NCBI RefSeq assembly: GCF_016482825.1
Contig: NZ_JAEMNV010000002.1
Location: 62,001-126,000 of the forward strand
Length of the DNA stretch: 64,000 bases
Reading direction: 5' to 3'
Source of the DNA: Antrihabitans stalagmiti
GTDB lineage: Bacteria; Actinomycetota; Actinomycetes; Mycobacteriales; Mycobacteriaceae
Within the stretch, counting starts at the first letter, position 1; each line of letters begins with the position of its first letter. The notes below the pieces were generated by a model, which was given only the letters and a program-made list of their open reading frames with translations, was not told the origin of the DNA and did not search any database. Below, one piece after another: positions 25,289-35,697 of this stretch. Both the position numbers and the translations under genes were made by a program.

Positions 25289-26113
25289 ATGGCGAATCTA
25301 CGCGAGCAGATCATTGCCGAGTTGGGCGTCGCGCCCATCATCGACGCAAGAGCCGAGGTCAGGCGTCGAGTGGAGTTCTTGAAGGACTACCTGCGCTCCA
25401 CCTCCGCACGGGGGTTTGTGCTCGGGATCAGCGGCGGGCAGGACAGCGCGCTCACCGGCAGACTCTGCCAACTCGCTGCGGAAGAACTGCGCAGCGAAGG
25501 ACACGAGGCAACCTTTGTCGCCGTCCGGTTGCCGTACGGAATACAGGCCGACGAGGACGACGCTCAGATCGCGCTTCGGTTCATCTCACCCGACCGCTGC
25601 GTCGTCGTCGACATCAAGCCGGGTGCCGACGCGGCCGGTGCTGCCGCAGCGGCAGGGCTGGGTGTGGACAGGTTGCGAGACTTCGTCCGCGGCAACGTCA
25701 AAGCGCGCAAACGGATGATCGTCCAGTACGCGATCGCAGGAGAACTCGGGCACCTGGTGGTCGGCACCGATCATGCGGCAGAAGCGGTGACAGGATTCTT
25801 CACCAAGTTCGGCGACGGCGGGGTCGACGTGACACCACTCACCGGGCTCACCAAACGCCAGGGCGCGGCGCTGCTTGCCGAGCTCGGTGCGCCACCGAGC
25901 ACGTGGGCGAAGGTGCCGACGGCCGACCTCGAAGACGACCGCCCTGCGCTGCCCGACGAGGTAGCTCTCGGGGTGACCTACGCGCAGATCGACGACTACC
26001 TCGAAGGCAAGGACGTTGCGGCCGAGGTCGCCGCGAAACTGGAGTCGACTTTCCTTGCCACGCGCCACAAAAGGACGGTTCCGGTCACGCCGACGGACGT
26101 TTGGTGGCGCTAG
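25289..26113 (+). CDS. nadE: Ammonia-dependent NAD+ synthetase
   Basis: NadE amidates nicotinic acid adenine dinucleotide, the last step of NAD synthesis. The 274-residue protein starts [14 protein letters not shown] and has the ATP-pyrophosphatase loop SGGQDSAL near residue 47. [20 protein letters not shown] and a C-terminal [14 protein letters not shown] region match the short form that uses free ammonia; there is no N-terminal nitrilase-like glutaminase domain. The ATG at 25289 is preferred, since an upstream extension overlaps the divergent kinase gene. Its TAG stop is the first codon of the palindromic element at 26111. Confidence 0.95.
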
Positions 26114-26185
26114 GCGGCTACGCCGCTCGTGCGTCTTTTCGGTGGTCGGGCCCGCCGAAAAGACGCACGAGCCGCGTGCGGCCTA
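26111..26185. repeat. 75-bp palindromic element, copy 2
   Basis: It fills the whole space between two convergent genes. TAG at its left end is the nadE stop, and CTA at its right end is the stop of the monooxygenase fusion. The inner 17-bp stem CTCGTGCGTCTTTTCGG (26126-26142) pairs perfectly with 26155-26171. Relative to other copies, the stem has a compensated change (GCGTC/GACGC for GAGTC/GACTC), which argues for selection on the fold. Confidence 0.92.
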
Positions 26186-29002
26186 TGTGTACAGCTCCGG
26201 CTCGAAATTCCTTGTCCGATACCAATATTCGAAGGTGAAGCTCGGCCACAGCGTCCGATTCTTACCGAACTCATCCAGATACCAGCTCTCGCAGCCGCCC
26301 GCCGACCACACCGCTCCGTCCAGCTTCTGCTGCAGACCGTCGTTGAATTCGCGCTGCACCTCGGCCTTGACGTCGAGCGAATCGAGTCCGTCGTCGCCCA
26401 ACATCTGTACAGCCTGCAGCGCGTAGTTCACCTGCGACTCGATCATGAAGATGATCGACGTGTGGCCGAGTCCCGTGTTCGGTCCGAGCAGCATAAAGAA
26501 GTTGGGGAAACCCGCAACGGACACACCGAGATACGCCTCCATGCCACTCCCCTCCTTCCACGAGTCACGAATCTCGACGCCACCCTTGCCGACGACCTGC
26601 ATCGGACCGATCGGGTCGGAGACGTGAAACCCTGTGCCGTAGACGATGGCGTCGACCTGCCGCTCGACGCGGTCGTCGGTGGTGATGCCGTGCGGACCGA
26701 TCTCGGCGATCGATTCGGTGACGACCTCGACGTTGTCTCGGTTGAGGGCCGGGTAGTACTCGTCCGACATCAGAATTCGCTTGCAGCCGAGCGTGTAGTC
26801 GGGAGTCACCTTCGCGCGAAGCTCGGGGTCGTCGATCGAATTGTCGATGTGCCGTCGCGCATAGATCTCGGCGACTTTCATCGCTCGCGGGTCCACCGCG
26901 AGGCCGAGCACGCGGCTTTCCATCCACACGTAGATGCCGCTCCGCGCAACTCTTTGCGCCAGTGGAATATTGGCAAGAATTTTCTGCTCGATGTCGGTCA
27001 TCTCGCGGTCGGGCTTCGACATCACCCACGGCGGCGTGCGCTGGAACAGCGTCAGCTTCTCCACAAGCGGCGCGATCTTCGGCACGAATTGGATTGCCGA
27101 AGCACCGGTTCCGACCACGGCGACGGTCTTGCCGCCGAAGTCGAAATCGTGATCCCAACGGGCGGAGTGGAATGCGGTGCCTTCGAACTTTTCGATACCG
27201 TTCAACCGGGGGTAGGCGGGAATACTCAACGCGCCGACCGCAGAGATCACCACCTTCGCCGTAGTGACCTGGCCGTCGCGTGTTGTGATGCGCCAATACC
27301 GGCGATCGTCGTCCCATTCCAGGCGGACCACTTCGCTACCGAGTCGCAGATGTGGTGTCAATTCGTACTTTTCGACGCAATGGCGTTGATACGCCCAGAT
27401 TTCCGCCTGGGGAGCGAACATCCTCGACCAGTGCGGATTGGGCTCGAACGAGAACGAGTACAGGTGTGACGGAACGTCGCACGCGCAGCCCGGATAGATG
27501 TTGTCGCGCCACGTCCCGCCGATATCGTCCGCTTTTTCGAACAGCACGAACTTGTTGATCCCGGCTTCTTTGAGTTTGATCGCCGCACAGAGTCCGGCAA
27601 AGCCAGCGCCGACGACTGCTACGCGGTGCTCGGCGTGCACGGGCGCACTCGACGTCAACTCCGGCCGCGACTGCGACGACGAAACCTGATGCGACACAGC
27701 AGCGGTCACACCGAGCTGTTCGAGAAGCAGGTCGGTGAACGCTTCGGCAGCCTCGGCGTCGAACTGCTCGAGCAGGTAACGCAACGACAGATGGATCGAC
27801 CCGGCGACGGTCACGGCACCGACGCTCACACCGATCGGCAACGCGGCAGGCGGCGAGAAGTACACCGACGTCGGACCGGAGCCGTCGAAATAGGGCGCCG
27901 AAGGGACGCGGCCGAGGTTGGAGAGCACGGCCGAGTCGACGAGACGATTCCCGGTCAAGGGCAACAGTGCAGGAAGCGCCTGCTTGACGCCGACCGGTAT
28001 GCGTTTGCCGATTCCCATCAGGTCGAACAGCCCTGCCGACCGCTGCGCGCGATGCACCGGCTCAGTCTGTGCTGCGATAGCCGCAGTAGCCGTGGCAAGG
28101 TCGACGCGGTCCGAGGCATCCGTCGACACCGACGCCATGGACGTGTAGTTGCCGACGCCGTCCCAGAACCAATCGCTCGGGCGGGTGTTGACCGGAACGA
28201 GCAACGAGATGCGGCCGACGGCGGACCCCCGTTCGGAGTTCCAGCGGTCGATCGTCAGCTGGAGCCCTGCAAGAAGTACGTCGTTGAGCGTGGCACGGTC
28301 CGGTCTGCCGTGCAGCAGCAGATCTGTTTGATCGGAGCCGAGTTGTCGAATGACGACGCCCGAACCCGGATGCGGCGATTCACCCTGTGTCGCAACGCGA
28401 GACGGTCCGCGGAGTCCGTCGACCAACCGCGCCGCGCTCTGCAGCGCACGACTGGTCCACTCCCGCCAATCGGTGGCGGACAATCGTTTGTCGAGTGCTC
28501 GCGCCACCTCGATCGGAACGACGTCCGAGGGATCGGTTGCCGAGCGGTACGCGCTGGCGACGGACTGGACGAAGCGGTAGGCGCCGACACTGTCGAAAGC
28601 GACGTTGCTGAACGCGAACAGCACCGTGTCGCCGACGCGACCGTGCGCAAGCACGACGCGAAAGCCCGGCGCAAGGCTCAGCGGTATGGGCGCACTTGCC
28701 AGGTTGGCTCGAATTTCGGCAAGCCGATCGGGGTCAGGACAGTCGACGGCGTTGAGCGGGTCAAGGTCGAAGCTGTCCGGCACCAGCCACCGGTAGGACC
28801 GGTCGAGTCGGCTCCAATCCTGCAATCGCGCCCGCGCGAGAGGGTGTCGAGCGGCGGCGGTACGGATGGCGCGATCGAGTCGACTCAGGTCGAGCGAGCC
28901 GGTGGCGCCGACCTCGATGAGCAAGTTCCATGGACTCGACGCCTGTTCGAGGTGAAAGACAGCTTCTTCGAATTCTCTGAACCGAAATGTCTGCGTTGAC
29001 AT
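26183..29002 (-). CDS. Condensation/acyltransferase-like domain fused to Baeyer-Villiger monooxygenase
   Basis: This is a 939-residue fusion. Residues 1-430 resemble the condensation/PapA/wax-ester-synthase acyltransferase superfamily: a start rich in helix, FSNVAFDSVGAYRFVQ (131-146) where HHxxxDG should be, LVPVNTRPSDW (268-278), and SNLGRVP (361). The two catalytic histidines are replaced by Ser-Asn. Residues 460-939 form a complete flavin monooxygenase: VAVVGAGFAGLCAA for FAD, the Baeyer-Villiger fingerprint FEGTAFHSARWD (606-617), VAVVGTGASAIQF for NADPH, and a GGCESWYLDEFGKN end. A lipid-like or acyl-chain ketone substrate is inferred. It lies 72 bp after moaD on the same strand. Confidence 0.88.
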   Translation of the reverse strand: MSTQTFRFREFEEAVFHLEQASSPWNLLIEVGATGSLDLSRLDRAIRTAAARHPLARARLQDWSRLDRSYRWLVPDSFDLDPLNAVDCPDPDRLAEIRANLASAPIPLSLAPGFRVVLAHGRVGDTVLFAFSNVAFDSVGAYRFVQSVASAYRSATDPSDVVPIEVARALDKRLSATDWREWTSRALQSAARLVDGLRGPSRVATQGESPHPGSGVVIRQLGSDQTDLLLHGRPDRATLNDVLLAGLQLTIDRWNSERGSAVGRISLLVPVNTRPSDWFWDGVGNYTSMASVSTDASDRVDLATATAAIAAQTEPVHRAQRSAGLFDLMGIGKRIPVGVKQALPALLPLTGNRLVDSAVLSNLGRVPSAPYFDGSGPTSVYFSPPAALPIGVSVGAVTVAGSIHLSLRYLLEQFDAEAAEAFTDLLLEQLGVTAAVSHQVSSSQSRPELTSSAPVHAEHRVAVVGAGFAGLCAAIKLKEAGINKFVLFEKADDIGGTWRDNIYPGCACDVPSHLYSFSFEPNPHWSRMFAPQAEIWAYQRHCVEKYELTPHLRLGSEVVRLEWDDDRRYWRITTRDGQVTTAKVVISAVGALSIPAYPRLNGIEKFEGTAFHSARWDHDFDFGGKTVAVVGTGASAIQFVPKIAPLVEKLTLFQRTPPWVMSKPDREMTDIEQKILANIPLAQRVARSGIYVWMESRVLGLAVDPRAMKVAEIYARRHIDNSIDDPELRAKVTPDYTLGCKRILMSDEYYPALNRDNVEVVTESIAEIGPHGITTDDRVERQVDAIVYGTGFHVSDPIGPMQVVGKGGVEIRDSWKEGSGMEAYLGVSVAGFPNFFMLLGPNTGLGHTSIIFMIESQVNYALQAVQMLGDDGLDSLDVKAEVQREFNDGLQQKLDGAVWSAGGCESWYLDEFGKNRTLWPSFTFEYWYRTRNFEPELYT

Positions 29003-29074
29003 AGGTTTCCCATCGATCCGGTACCCGGATCTCGGACCTTACGCCGCTGCAACGGAGTCCTCGGCGGGATTGAC

Positions 29075-29308
29075 TCAGCCTCCGGCAAAAGGCGGAAGAA
29101 CGTCGACGCGATCGCCGAGAACGGTGCTGTCGTCGCGGGTCAACTCGTCACCGACCAGATACGCGGAGACCGTGAGCATCCGGTCCATTCCAGCGCCGTA
29201 CTTCGTGATCAGGATTCGTCGGAGTTCGCCAACCGTGCCGGCGTCGAGTGTTTCCTTGGCGCAACCCGTCGCGTCGGCGATGGCGGCGAAGTAGCGGACC
29301 TCAACCAC
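29075..29308 (-). CDS. moaD: Molybdopterin synthase small subunit MoaD
   Basis: MoaD is the sulfur carrier of molybdopterin synthase; its C-terminal Gly-Gly is thiocarboxylated and donates sulfur. The 77-residue protein starts [20 protein letters not shown] and ends DVLPPFAGG, with the required double glycine. The GTG at 29308 overlaps the end of moaA by eight bases. A long upstream extension of the frame is only the shadow of moaA. The partner MoaE is encoded at 32618. Confidence 0.93.
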
Positions 29309-30456: not shown

Positions 30457-31641
30457 ATGACCCGTCGAACTGTGGCCGAATATCGTCGCCACGTCGCACA
30501 GCTGTTGAGTGCGCTCGACTCCCTTCCCGCCGAAACCGTCGAACTCGACGCTGCGCTCGGCAGGCTGCTCGCCGTCGATGTGACCGCGCCGATGGACCTG
30601 CCGCAGTTCCGGAATTCGCAGATGGACGGGTACGCCGTCGATGCAGCCTCGATCGCCGCGGTACCCGTCGAGCTGCCGGTGCTGCAGACGGTTGCTGCCG
30701 GCGACGCCGGACCCGCCGCCTTCGCGTCGGGGACAGCAGTCAAAGTCATGACCGGAGCACCGGTTCCACCGGGCGCCGATTGTGTGGTCCCCGTCGAAGA
30801 CACGACCACCAGCGGTGATCGGGTCACCGTCACTCGCTCTCGTTCGGTCGGCGAGTTCGTCCGCGAGCCCGGCACCGATGTCCGAACAGGCGAACGCCTG
30901 CTCAGTGCGGGTGTACTGCTGGCACCGAGGCACGTCGCCGTGCTTGCAGCGGTCGGTGTCCGGACTGTCGAGGTGCGGCGACGACCACGTGCGGCGGTCA
31001 TCACCACCGGTGCCGAATTGGTTGCTGCAGGAACAGCATTGCAGCCTGGACAGATCTACGACTCGAACGGTATCGCGCTTGCGACGAGCCTGCGGGCCAA
31101 CGGTGTCGACGTCACCTCGGTGTCGAGGAGCAGCGACGACGTCGCCGAGTTCCGTGAACTTCTCACTGCTGCAATCGAAGACGCCGACGTGGTCTTCACC
31201 TCGGGTGGGGTGTCGATGGGCGACTTCGAAGTTGTCAAAGATGCGCTGACGCCTCTCGGTGGCGAATTCGGCCATGTCGCAATGCAACCGGGCGGTCCGC
31301 AGGGTTCGACTGTCGTCGACGGCGTGCCCGTGTTGAGTTTTCCCGGCAATCCGGTGAGCACCCTCGTCTCGTTCGAGGTGTTTGCTCGACCCCTGTTGCG
31401 ACGCGCGGCCGGCCTCCCCGACCTCGCCGGCTACGAAGTGCGCCTTGCCGCTTCGCTTACCTCGGTACCGGACCGGCAGCAGTTTCTCCGCGGCCGCAAA
31501 GTAGATGACACAGTCGAACTCGTCTCGGGACCGGGTTCGCATCTGGTCGCCGGGATGGCGCTGGCCGACGTTCTCATCGACATTCCCGCAGAGGTGACGG
31601 TATTGGAAGCTGGTGCACACGTGCAGGTACAAGAGCTGTGA
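30457..31641 (+). CDS. moeA: Molybdopterin molybdenumtransferase MoeA
   Basis: MoeA inserts molybdate into adenylylated molybdopterin. The 394-residue protein has the expected landmarks: [16 protein letters not shown] near residue 48, [42 protein letters not shown], and [15 protein letters not shown]. It is divergent from moaA across 94 bp, and the stop overlaps the next gene's GTG start, so it leads a moeA/moaC-mog/moaE operon. Confidence 0.95.
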
Positions 31642-32621
31642 GTGAACTGTCGCACGTCGACCGCGAGGGACGCGCGCGGATGGTCGACGTCAGCGCGAAA
31701 TTCGACACCGCGCGCATCGCTGTGGCTGCCGGCGAACTGCGAACGACCGCAGCCGTTGTCGCGCTCGTACGGGCCGACGACCTGCCGAAGGCCGACGTGC
31801 TCGCGACCGCCAGAATCGCCGGTATCGCAGGTGCCAAGAAGACCTCCGAGCTGATCCCACTCTGTCACCAGCTCGCGCTGTCGTCGGTGGAGGTGTCGTT
31901 CGGCTTCACCGAAACCTCGATCACGATCGAGGCGACGGCGAAGACGAAAGGGCCGACCGGCGTCGAGATGGAAGCTTTGACGGCCGTCGCGATAGCCGGT
32001 TTGACGTTGCACGACATGGTGAAAGCGGTCGACCCGGCGGCGAGCATCGACGGCGTTCGACTGTTGACCAAGGACGGCGGCAAACGCGGACACTGGGAAC
32101 GAACGCCGACGCAGGCACCGGCAGAACTCGGTCCTAGGTCCGCGGTCGTGCTCGTCGCCTCGACCGGTGGAGCGAATGGCACCAGAGCCGACACAACCGG
32201 ACCTCAGATCGTCGAATGGCTTACCGGACAGGGTTTTACCGCCCGTGGACCACTCGTCTACGCAGACGCGGACATCAAGACAGGTCTCGCCGATGCACTC
32301 GCGGGTGCACCCGCGGTCGTCATCAGCACAGGTGGGACCGGCGCGTCTCCGACCGACGCGACACCGGAAGCCACACTCGCGATCCTCGACCGCGAGCTTC
32401 CCGGCGTCGCCGAGGCGATTCGCGCGCGCGGAGCGGCGAAGTTCCCACATGCGTCGCTGAGTCGCGGCGTTGCCGGTTTGGCAGGCACGACGGTAGTGGT
32501 CAACCTGCCCGGCTCCCCCGGCGGCGTTCGGGACGGTCTGGCGGTGCTCGAACCGATTCTCGGGCACCTTGTCGATCAAGTCGCCGGTGGCGGCCCCCAT
32601 GAGGACGGTGCACACCAATGA
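31638..32621 (+). CDS. moaC: Bifunctional MoaC-MogA/MoaB molybdenum cofactor protein
   Basis: This is a 327-residue fusion. Residues 1-155 are MoaC, the cyclic pyranopterin monophosphate synthase: LIPLCHQLALSSVEVSF near residue 74, GVEMEALTAVA near 115, and the KAVDPAASIDGVRLL helix. Residues 165-327 are the MogA/MoaB domain that adenylylates molybdopterin: VVISTGGTGASPTDATPEAT and VVNLPGSPGGVRDGL. The GTG start at 31638 overlaps the moeA stop (GTGA), and the stop overlaps moaE (ATGA). Fused MoaC-MoaB proteins are known in actinobacteria. Confidence 0.94.
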   Translation: MSELSHVDREGRARMVDVSAKFDTARIAVAAGELRTTAAVVALVRADDLPKADVLATARIAGIAGAKKTSELIPLCHQLALSSVEVSFGFTETSITIEATAKTKGPTGVEMEALTAVAIAGLTLHDMVKAVDPAASIDGVRLLTKDGGKRGHWERTPTQAPAELGPRSAVVLVASTGGANGTRADTTGPQIVEWLTGQGFTARGPLVYADADIKTGLADALAGAPAVVISTGGTGASPTDATPEATLAILDRELPGVAEAIRARGAAKFPHASLSRGVAGLAGTTVVVNLPGSPGGVRDGLAVLEPILGHLVDQVAGGGPHEDGAHQ

Positions 32622-33043: not shown

Positions 33044-34813
33044 TCACCCGGAACCGACGACAGCCGTCGATTCCCACGGCGCGCGACCGACTCCGGTGAT
33101 CCGGTAGTTGCCCCACGGATCCTTGTCCGCCAACGCGGCTGGCGTAGCGGGTCCGTCGCCGATGGTCAGCAGCAGCGGCGATCCGCTTGGCTTCTTGAAC
33201 TCGTCGATATCGCCGACCACTCGTCCGTACCAGTGATACTTGCCGTCGAGCGGTTCCAGGTGACCGTTGAGGTGAACATCGACATGTCGCGTCCGCTCCC
33301 CCGCGGAAAGTACTGCGGCACCGCTGAATTCGGTGTCAGGTTCGCGCTCGTCGACGCTGCTCAACTCGTAGGCCCGTCGCTCGGGTGAGCGCATTCGACG
33401 CCAGTACGACACACTCGACCCAGGCCATGCGGCGCGATTGCGCCCCGTCTCGTCGAGGTACCAGCTCTCGCAGCCGCCCGAATTCCACACCGAGCCTTCG
33501 AGTTCGGCATGTACCTGTCGATTGAAATCACGTTGCATGCCTGCGCGAACCTCGATGCGAGTGGCGTCCTGAGCGTCCATCATCGCCAGACATTCGACGA
33601 TGTAACGCGCCTGGGCCTCGATCACGAAAACGATCGACTGATTACCGCCACCGGAGTTGGGTCCCATCATGAGGAAGAAGTTCGGGAACCCCGCGACCGC
33701 CACACCCAGATAGGCCTCCATCCCGTCACGCCAGGCCGTCGTGATGCTCAGACCACCGCGGCCGACGATGTGCTCGTGGGTGAACCTTTCGCTGATCTCG
33801 AAGCCGGTTCCGTAGACGACGACATCGGCATCGTGGACTTCGCCGTCCACGGTCCGGATACCAGTCTCGGTGAATCCGGCTATTCCGGCGGTCACCAGGT
33901 CGACGTCGGAGCGCTGCAGCGTCGGATAGTAGTTGCTGGAGACCAGTATTCGCTTGCAGCCGATCGTGTAGTCGGGAGTGAGCACCGCACGTAGCTCGGG
34001 ATCGCGGACCTGTTTGTGCAGCAGACCACGGGCAGCCGATTCGAGTCCTCTCATCAGCTTCGGATGCATGAAGCCGAGAATCAGGTATTCGTGTGCCCAG
34101 TAGATGGCGCCACGGTAGGCACGTTGAACACCTGGCACCCGGTCGAAGGCCTGCTTCTCCCGTCGCGAGATTGCGCGGTCCAGCTTCGGAAGGATCCAGT
34201 GCGGCGTGCGCTGAAAGACGTCGACATGCGCGGCGTGCTTGGCGATCTCGGGTACGAACTGGACAGCGCTTGCGCCGGTGCCGATGACGGCGACCCTTTT
34301 GCCTGCCAGATCGACGGAATGGTCCCACTCGGCGGAGTGAAACGTAGGACCTGTGAACGTTTCTCGGCCGGGGAAGGTCGGGATGCTCGGCTTGTGGAGC
34401 GGGCCAGGCCCGGCGACGACGATCCGCGCTGTGTAGGAGGTTCCGCCGCGCGTCCTGACGTGCCACAGGTCCGCTGCCTCGTCGAAATCGTAGGCGATCA
34501 CCTCGGAACCAAATCGAATATGGTGCGCCAGATCGTATTCCGCGACGACGCGCTCGATGTAGTCGAGAATCTCGGGCTGCCGAGCGTACATCCGCGTCCA
34601 CTTGCGATTCGGCGCGAACGAGAACGAATACATCAGGGACATGACGTCGCAACCACAGCCCGGGTAGGTGTTCTCTCGCCACGTTCCGCCGACGCGGTCG
34701 GCCTTCTCCAGCACGACGAAGTTGTGCCGACCCGACTCCTTCAGCTTGATAGCCATACAGAGGCCGGCGAACCCGGTCCCGACGATCAGGACGTCGTGAA
34801 AGCGTTCACTCAC
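33044..34813 (-). CDS. Flavin monooxygenase (BVMO-like) with C-terminal DUF4873 domain
   Basis: The protein has 589 residues if it starts at the GTG at 34813, which overlaps the AurF-like gene's stop as GTGA; a GTG seven codons upstream is the alternative. The FAD motif VLIVGTGFAGLCMAIKLKES, the Baeyer-Villiger fingerprint FTGPTFHSAEWD and the NADPH motif VAVIGTGASAVQF are intact. The last ~110 residues, with HLEPLDGKYHWYGRV and WGNYRITGVGRAPWE, are the DUF4873 domain often found behind such enzymes in actinobacteria. It is the second gene of a two-gene operon with a diiron oxygenase, implying successive oxidations of one substrate. Confidence 0.9.
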   Translation of the reverse strand: MSERFHDVLIVGTGFAGLCMAIKLKESGRHNFVVLEKADRVGGTWRENTYPGCGCDVMSLMYSFSFAPNRKWTRMYARQPEILDYIERVVAEYDLAHHIRFGSEVIAYDFDEAADLWHVRTRGGTSYTARIVVAGPGPLHKPSIPTFPGRETFTGPTFHSAEWDHSVDLAGKRVAVIGTGASAVQFVPEIAKHAAHVDVFQRTPHWILPKLDRAISRREKQAFDRVPGVQRAYRGAIYWAHEYLILGFMHPKLMRGLESAARGLLHKQVRDPELRAVLTPDYTIGCKRILVSSNYYPTLQRSDVDLVTAGIAGFTETGIRTVDGEVHDADVVVYGTGFEISERFTHEHIVGRGGLSITTAWRDGMEAYLGVAVAGFPNFFLMMGPNSGGGNQSIVFVIEAQARYIVECLAMMDAQDATRIEVRAGMQRDFNRQVHAELEGSVWNSGGCESWYLDETGRNRAAWPGSSVSYWRRMRSPERRAYELSSVDEREPDTEFSGAAVLSAGERTRHVDVHLNGHLEPLDGKYHWYGRVVGDIDEFKKPSGSPLLLTIGDGPATPAALADKDPWGNYRITGVGRAPWESTAVVGSG

Positions 34814-35697
34814 AGGAACCGGCCGCGTCGCCACAATGCGCGCGCAGGCGCCAACATCAAGCCGTTCTCGGCGAGAAATGCTGCGAGGCTTTCGAATCCA
34901 CGTTTCTGGACGTCCTGGAAGTGCGGATTGGACCGCGCTTGACGCCGCGCCTCAACCGGATCGAGTCCAGCACGCTTGTACATCACGGGATTGGTGAACA
35001 GGCGTTGGAAGAGCGGTCCACCGACGCCGTTGATCGAACCGACCCACAGCCGCTCGATCGGATGGGTCTCCGCGGCACGACGCCGGACACCTTCGCGAGC
35101 AAACCGGATGTGCCTGGATTCCTCGGTGACGTGAATTTGCATGAGCCGCTTGATCATCGGCTGCAGTTCGGGGTCGTCGAGGACACGCCGCTGCGTCGCA
35201 TCGAAGATTTCCTCACCGATCAGCGCAGCGACCCACAACATCGTGCCACGGAAGAACTTGGGCAGAATATTGACGACGACACTCTGATACCAGTGCAACT
35301 GGTACGGCTTTGCACCCATCTGTTCGATGGCTCGCCCGAACATGGTCATGTGTCGACATTCGTCGCCCATCTCGGTCAGCATGTACCGCGAGTGCAGCGA
35401 ACTCGGGTCGTTGTGCAGCAGCGACCTCAACAGTGCCTGGTTGAGAATGTTCTCGAACCAGATGCCGACGCTGAGAATGTTCGCGGCCTCCTGGCGGGAC
35501 AGCTCGATACGCTGCGCTTCGCTCATCGTCTCCCACATCGGCGTCCGATATAGCGAAAGCACGGTGGGCGGAAGAAAGTACTTTCCCTCGTGAAGTGGTG
35601 CGTCCCAATCGATATCGACGGCCGGCGCGTAGGAATGCTTGATCGACCCTTTGAGGAGCCTGCTCGCTACGGTCTCTTTGTCGACAGCTCGCGTCAT
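34810..35697 (-). CDS. AurF-like diiron oxygenase
   Basis: This 295-residue all-helical protein is related to p-aminobenzoate N-oxygenase AurF and the mycobacterial diiron proteins of PF11583. The metal-ligand helices are visible: ILSVGIWFENILNQALL, MLTEMGDECRHMTMFGRA, VAALIGEEIFDATQR and HVTEESRHIRFAREG, each with the Glu or His expected of a dimetal site. It would oxidise an amine or a C-H bond. It is the first gene of an operon with the DUF4873 monooxygenase, behind a clear promoter and divergent from a TetR regulator. Confidence 0.87.
   Translation of the reverse strand: MTRAVDKETVASRLLKGSIKHSYAPAVDIDWDAPLHEGKYFLPPTVLSLYRTPMWETMSEAQRIELSRQEAANILSVGIWFENILNQALLRSLLHNDPSSLHSRYMLTEMGDECRHMTMFGRAIEQMGAKPYQLHWYQSVVVNILPKFFRGTMLWVAALIGEEIFDATQRRVLDDPELQPMIKRLMQIHVTEESRHIRFAREGVRRRAAETHPIERLWVGSINGVGGPLFQRLFTNPVMYKRAGLDPVEARRQARSNPHFQDVQKRGFESLAAFLAENGLMLAPARALWRRGRFL

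Follow-up and report, generated by a model that had tools for sequence, protein, structure and literature searches.

The window analysed here, a stretch of 64,000 nucleotides from Antrihabitans stalagmiti, encodes a protein in which a condensation-superfamily domain precedes a type I Baeyer-Villiger monooxygenase (BVMO), and which, judging from its sequence, is most likely an active BVMO with a non-catalytic domain for acyl binding or docking. More precisely, and with a probability of about 0.4, we propose that a type I BVMO has acquired an N-terminal domain of this superfamily, that acyl transfer by this domain would have been lost, and that the domain would be retained because it binds, most likely, an acyl thioester (on coenzyme A or a carrier protein) or a lipid-linked substrate, as the acyltransferases of the superfamily do. 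The bound substrate would thus be brought to the adjoining flavin site, such docking being the presumed reason for retention, and the BVMO half is predicted from its signature residues to be catalytically working. Type I BVMOs use FAD, NADPH and O2 to convert a ketone into an ester or a lactone, or to oxidise heteroatoms. The fusion appears to be a new, moderately interesting combination of known families. The initial annotation had not recognised it as a described enzyme and, in agreement with this, a full-text search of the open-licence literature returned no description of a condensation domain or an acyltransferase joined to a BVMO.

Organisation of the fused protein

The fusion is encoded by one unbroken open reading frame (ORF) with an ATG start codon, and an orthologue with 79% end-to-end identity is present in Antrihabitans sp. 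YC2-6. Its parts are as follows.

26183..29002, minus strand: fusion gene, 939 aa, condensation-like domain plus BVMO (ORF; YC2-6 orthologue)
27710..29002, minus strand: N-terminal condensation/PapA/WS-DGAT-like domain, residues 1 to about 431 (PF00668, TIGR02946 below cut-off, PDB profile matches)
28589..28609, minus strand: SNVAFDS in place of HHxxxDG, residues 132-138 (alignment with 27 unfused homologues; 17 more pairwise)
27632..27709, minus strand: linker, residues about 432-457 (56.5% identity over 23 aligned codons), less conserved between the window and YC2-6 than either of the two domains
26186..27631, minus strand: type I BVMO domain, residues 458-939 (PF00743, motifs, PDB matches)

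The N-terminal domain was recognised by the Pfam Condensation profile PF00668, at 32.1 bits for the full protein (cut-off 30.6, best stretch 236-320) and at 34.9 bits for the N-terminal 439 residues alone against the same cut-off. These 439 residues scored 40.5 bits with the NCBIfam WS/DGAT profile TIGR02946, far under its curated cut-off of 309.95, and neither PF03007 nor PF06974 matched the protein of the window, at full length or in its N-terminal part; by TIGR02946 and PF03007 the protein thus falls outside the WS/DGAT acyltransferases. In an alignment of 18 members, composed of this domain and unfused homologues, PF00668 was found in 17, TIGR02946 in 17 and PapA_C in 6. The profile built from these 18 members matched condensation domains of nonribosomal peptide synthetases in the PDB and, over its positions 21-425, entry 8s6l, a phthiocerol/phthiodiolone dimycocerosyl transferase of the PapA5 type. 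On the strength of PF00668, of the TIGR02946 score below cut-off and of these PDB matches, the domain is assigned to the condensation superfamily, without a closer named family. The condensation/PapA/WS-DGAT architecture read initially from the sequence is hence upheld by profiles; of the four Pfam families proposed for the search, PF00668 and PF00743 were recovered and PF03007 and PF06974 were not. AlphaFold models of the full fusion on a two-row alignment (pLDDT 27.9) and of the N-terminal domain alone (pLDDT 34.0) were too poor to judge the fold, a cleft or a channel. A search of the window's own genome with this domain gave no second copy at E 0.001.

The C-terminal half had been described as an intact BVMO, and its signature residues support this description. 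The FMO-like profile PF00743 reached 64.4 bits (cut-off 22) over residues 459-795 of the full protein. Both dinucleotide-binding motifs of the form GxGxx[GA] are present (GAGFAG at 465-470, GTGASA at 631-636), and between them, at 606-616, stands FEGTAFHSARW, the type I BVMO fingerprint having the consensus FxGxxxHxxxW. In the alignment to cyclohexanone monooxygenase, the stretches around Asp509 and Arg742 are both matched, and by this comparison we take the two residues to be the active-site Asp and Arg. Asp509, Lys741 and Arg742 occur in both fusions and in all 30 aligned relatives, and among 89 conserved BVMO columns both fusions deviate in 3. Type I BVMOs such as cyclohexanone, phenylacetone and steroid monooxygenases, which share with the fusion the two Rossmann motifs, the fingerprint and the active-site Asp and Arg, were the best PDB matches of the full protein, and the 60 PDB matches listed all cover the BVMO half.

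Unfused BVMOs are more distant from the fusion than its YC2-6 orthologue: those listed from the genus reach no more than 50% identity with it, and the best one met (54%) comes from a Nonomuraea plasmid record, which carries no feature annotation around this match. The genome itself gave 37 rows of BVMO-like matches including the fusion, some of them weak or fragments of one gene. Eight long open frames at other BVMO copies (six stretches) were considered as further fusions and discarded, their N-terminal extra looking by eye like read-through before Met; this check took in these eight frames among the BVMO rows of the genome. The second, unfused monooxygenase announced for the window is indeed present.

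33044-34834, minus strand: second BVMO, unfused, with a C-terminal DUF4873 (Pfam)

It lies directly downstream of a gene for an AurF-type N-oxygenase on the same strand (33044-35697, minus, for the pair), and a two-oxygenase operon is possible.

Loss of the condensation motif in fused copies

The replacement of HHxxxDG by SNVAFDS, already noticed in the window's sequence, was verified by alignment. The motif reads [HN]HxxxD[GA] in 27 of 27 aligned unfused homologues, which include near-identical species and are not 27 independent cases, and SNVAFDS in both fused copies. One of these 27 (L041) comes from G002, an Antrihabitans genome without the fusion. In the 17 more distant unfused homologues, aligned pairwise, the second His and the Asp were kept in every case, so that both residues are retained in 44/44 unfused homologues read over the motif; this count leaves out one partial homologue in which the motif is uncovered (L097) and 7 of the 27 places of the class-level search, and eight weak places, at E about 1e-4 and for the most part within very long frames, stayed outside the alignment. 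The seven class-level places lie in open frames of 505-583 aa, too short for the fusion. In the fused copies both His are replaced and the Gly/Ala after the Asp has become Ser, the Asp itself being kept. Within the set of homologues read, only the fused copies have lost the motif.

The fusion consequently lacks the HHxxxDG with second His that marks active condensation enzymes. Mutation of the motif His does not always end the activity of a C domain, according to a review (PMC11546977), and the label "dead", given to the domain at the outset, is for this reason unproven.

Distribution and genomic site

The fusion was found in two of four Antrihabitans genomes, that of the window and that of YC2-6, whose locus was the only one returned for the N-terminal domain by the scan of named genomes. 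A survey of its occurrence, as initially advised, was extended to samples of the family (which we take to be Mycobacteriaceae in GTDB), the class and the phylum. The N-terminal domain was matched in 13 of 401 family genomes (E 1e-25), 23 of 394 class genomes (E 1e-15) and 8 of 396 phylum genomes (E 1e-15), own genome included in each; no fusion beyond the two Antrihabitans genomes was found in these samples, which overlap, are no censuses and were scored for at most four candidates per genome, so that extra copies may be missed.

Unfused homologues occur in several actinobacterial lineages as proteins of about 420-450 aa, which match all or most of the domain at about 27-41% identity and, where read, keep the motif that the fusion has lost. 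No BVMO was found near them in the flanks fetched (from less than 1.5 to about 10 kb, some ended by contig ends). Ten neighbour genes from seven unfused loci were assigned by Pfam to regulators, MMPL, a hydrolase, an acetyltransferase, a flavin enzyme and AMP-binding enzymes, the last, at two of the seven loci, being the sole shared theme. In a tree of 29 rows the two fused domains form a pair, with 100/100 support and a stem of 0.85. Next to them stand 18 unfused rows that belong to the same family, at 91/83, which is under the star threshold of the tool. The domain had no match in plasmid records or in phages; the full protein matched 425 plasmid records, none of which covers 80% of it. Viral contigs gave no relatives for the domain or for the BVMO sequence searched alone, and two relatives, spanning the BVMO half only, with the BVMO alignment as query.

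A few homologues lie in longer frames. L127 sits, partly covered, within an open frame of 1211 aa. The long frames upstream of the domain in L104 and L105 look by eye like read-through, and no BVMO was found in either locus. L108 and L109, which are unfused and come from other lineages of actinobacteria, seem to have in common an additional stretch of about 150 residues at the N-terminus, and L110 shows a comparably long open stretch upstream of the domain.

The following features surround the fusion gene.

29075..29308, minus strand: moaD-like gene, upstream of the fusion (beside moaA also in YC2-6 and G002)
29009..29046, minus strand: conserved block lying 6 bases before the ATG, operator-like or leader hairpin (comparison with YC2-6)
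26164..26180, minus strand: terminator-like hairpin right after the stop codon, weak because the region has one such hairpin where shuffled sequences average 2.5
25313..26113, plus strand: nadE, convergent with the fusion gene (Pfam NAD_synthase, 211 bits)

The gene order moaA, moaD, fusion and convergent nadE is the same in the window and in YC2-6. In G002 the site is empty: moaA, moaD and nadE follow one another directly, and fewer than 10 bases separate the match to moaD from that to nadE. A single gene was thus either gained between moaD and nadE or lost in G002; no nadE match was found in genome G001. The moaD-like gene had no Pfam match at 1e-5, and we presume its name from its position. 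These nearest neighbours, genes of molybdopterin and NAD synthesis, give no pointer to an acyl substrate or to mycolate or polyketide lipids. Elsewhere in the window (31638-32621, plus strand), MoaC and a MoCF_biosynth (molybdopterin-binding) domain share a single ORF.

From the moaD-like stop codon to the fusion ATG there are 72 bases. Of the 38 positions of the upstream block, 35 are identical between the window and YC2-6, the rest of the spacer being poorly aligned, and this conserved block suggests that the fusion is under its own control, as opposed to read-through from moaD. The block contains an inverted repeat, GATCCG-N5-CGGATC (29015-29031), and may be an operator, which is suggestive only: the repeat has a single match in the window, with zero mismatches, where 0.87 are expected at one mismatch or fewer, and its RNA fold (z -1.34 and -1.19) is not striking either. 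No sigma-70-like promoter was found in the region of the fusion gene, 0.4 being expected.

Selection and alternative explanations

The fused N-terminal domain is under purifying selection and is not visibly decaying. Pairwise dN/dS between the window and YC2-6 (Nei-Gojobori) was 0.162 for the N-terminal domain, 0.377 for the linker and 0.089 for the BVMO, values that are approximate with two sequences only and a dS of 1.1 to 1.2; at amino-acid-changing sites (dN) the rate of the domain is roughly double that of the BVMO. In the unfused set, 43 columns show a conservation of 90% or more. For 35 of them the conserved residue is retained by one fused copy or by both; in the other 8 both copies deviate, and among these the motif His is, to our knowledge, the sole catalytic position. 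Asp137, Arg143, Asn240, Asp241 and Asn285 are kept. The low dN/dS and the kept columns indicate constraint despite the lost motif, and such selection, together with a motif loss seen only in fused copies, fits what a retained non-catalytic role predicts.

Such a role could also be that of a scaffold, in which the domain lends stability to the BVMO, determines how it oligomerises or docks it to another protein, and leaves the substrate untouched. We consider this less likely than substrate docking. In its favour, selection holds the domain with its motif lost, the nearby BVMO with DUF4873 also bears an appended domain, and complexes are formed between X domains and their oxygenases (PMC5238595). 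The kept Arg143, Asn240, Asp241 and Asn285 weakly favour a preserved cleft, although they may be purely structural. The same constraint would be expected if the domain were still an acyltransferase through other residues, within a bifunctional protein that would, for instance, oxidise a ketone and then transfer an acyl group. The retained motif Asp and the C domains in which the His is dispensable (PMC11546977) agree with this idea; it is nevertheless improbable, both His and the Gly/Ala after the Asp having been replaced when the second His is kept in all 44 unfused homologues.

The narrow distribution (two of four genus genomes, none elsewhere in the samples) and the twofold higher dN of the domain could point to a decaying passenger of an accidental gene fusion. 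A dN/dS of 0.16 at a dS of about 1.2, the lack of any stop or frameshift in the fusion gene of either species and the 35 columns kept speak against it, and we regard a passenger as very improbable. Finally, in-frame GTG and TTG codons near the domain boundary leave room for internal initiation, and hence for two genes wrongly joined by annotation or assembly. A separate BVMO would, however, lack an ATG, none occurring between codons 329 and 528 in the window copy or between codons 304 and 525 in that of YC2-6, and the recurrence of the identical join and of the synteny in a second species shows that the join is no assembly slip; an artefact is hardly credible.

Relation to known systems

The reading that we prefer, a BVMO with a substrate-binding condensation domain, has a possible parallel in the X domain of glycopeptide antibiotic peptide synthetases. 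The X domain, with the motif HRxxxDD, is an inactive domain of condensation type through which P450s are recruited to peptide synthetases (PMC11546977, PMC5238595); it affects their activity and forms complexes with these oxygenases (PMC5238595). By these descriptions, both domains are condensation-type, altered in their motif and partnered with an oxygenase, but the X domain sits in a synthetase and recruits separate P450s, whereas that of the fusion is joined to a flavin enzyme and no carrier domain was found with it. Indeed, the 939-aa protein, searched with Pfam at full length, contains no other synthetase domain and no carrier domain, and it reads SNVAFDS instead of HRxxxDD, which separates it from X domains proper. 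The fused domain may thus resemble the X domain in principle, a likeness that is unproven. A narrower proposal, in which the inactive domain would present in cis a keto-acyl chain tethered to coenzyme A or a carrier protein, an ester bond being inserted into the chain while it is tethered, appears unlikely to us.

Carrier-tethered substrates or carrier-protein partners may exist in this genome, which has 70 matches to PF00668, within open frames that reach 14,997 aa, and 10 to WS/DGAT profiles, none of them linked to the fusion gene; the 70 do not include the fusion's own domain, so that weak members are missed. Very large peptide-synthetase-like frames, one of them the frame of 14,997 aa, lie at G000:C12:696667-760890 in the same genome.

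We know of no fusion for the mymA locus of Mycobacterium tuberculosis, where Rv3087 and Rv3088 are presumably genes of the WS/DGAT type. Its monooxygenase gene Rv3083 belongs to Rv3083-Rv3089, involved in mycolic acid biosynthesis according to PMC10272862. The genes are separate there, whereas the two domains form one chain in Antrihabitans.

Significance

Few systems are known to us in which condensation domains have turned into binding modules. In the sampled genomes the change is limited to one small genus, Antrihabitans, in which the proposed passage from an acyltransferase to a presenting domain can be tested thanks to the unfused relatives that keep the motif, the genome with an empty site and the two diverged copies. 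If tethered ketones are indeed presented by the N-terminal domain, this would offer a route to aim BVMOs at carrier-bound intermediates, and it would constitute a flavin-enzyme counterpart, within a single polypeptide, of the recruitment of oxygenases by X domains.
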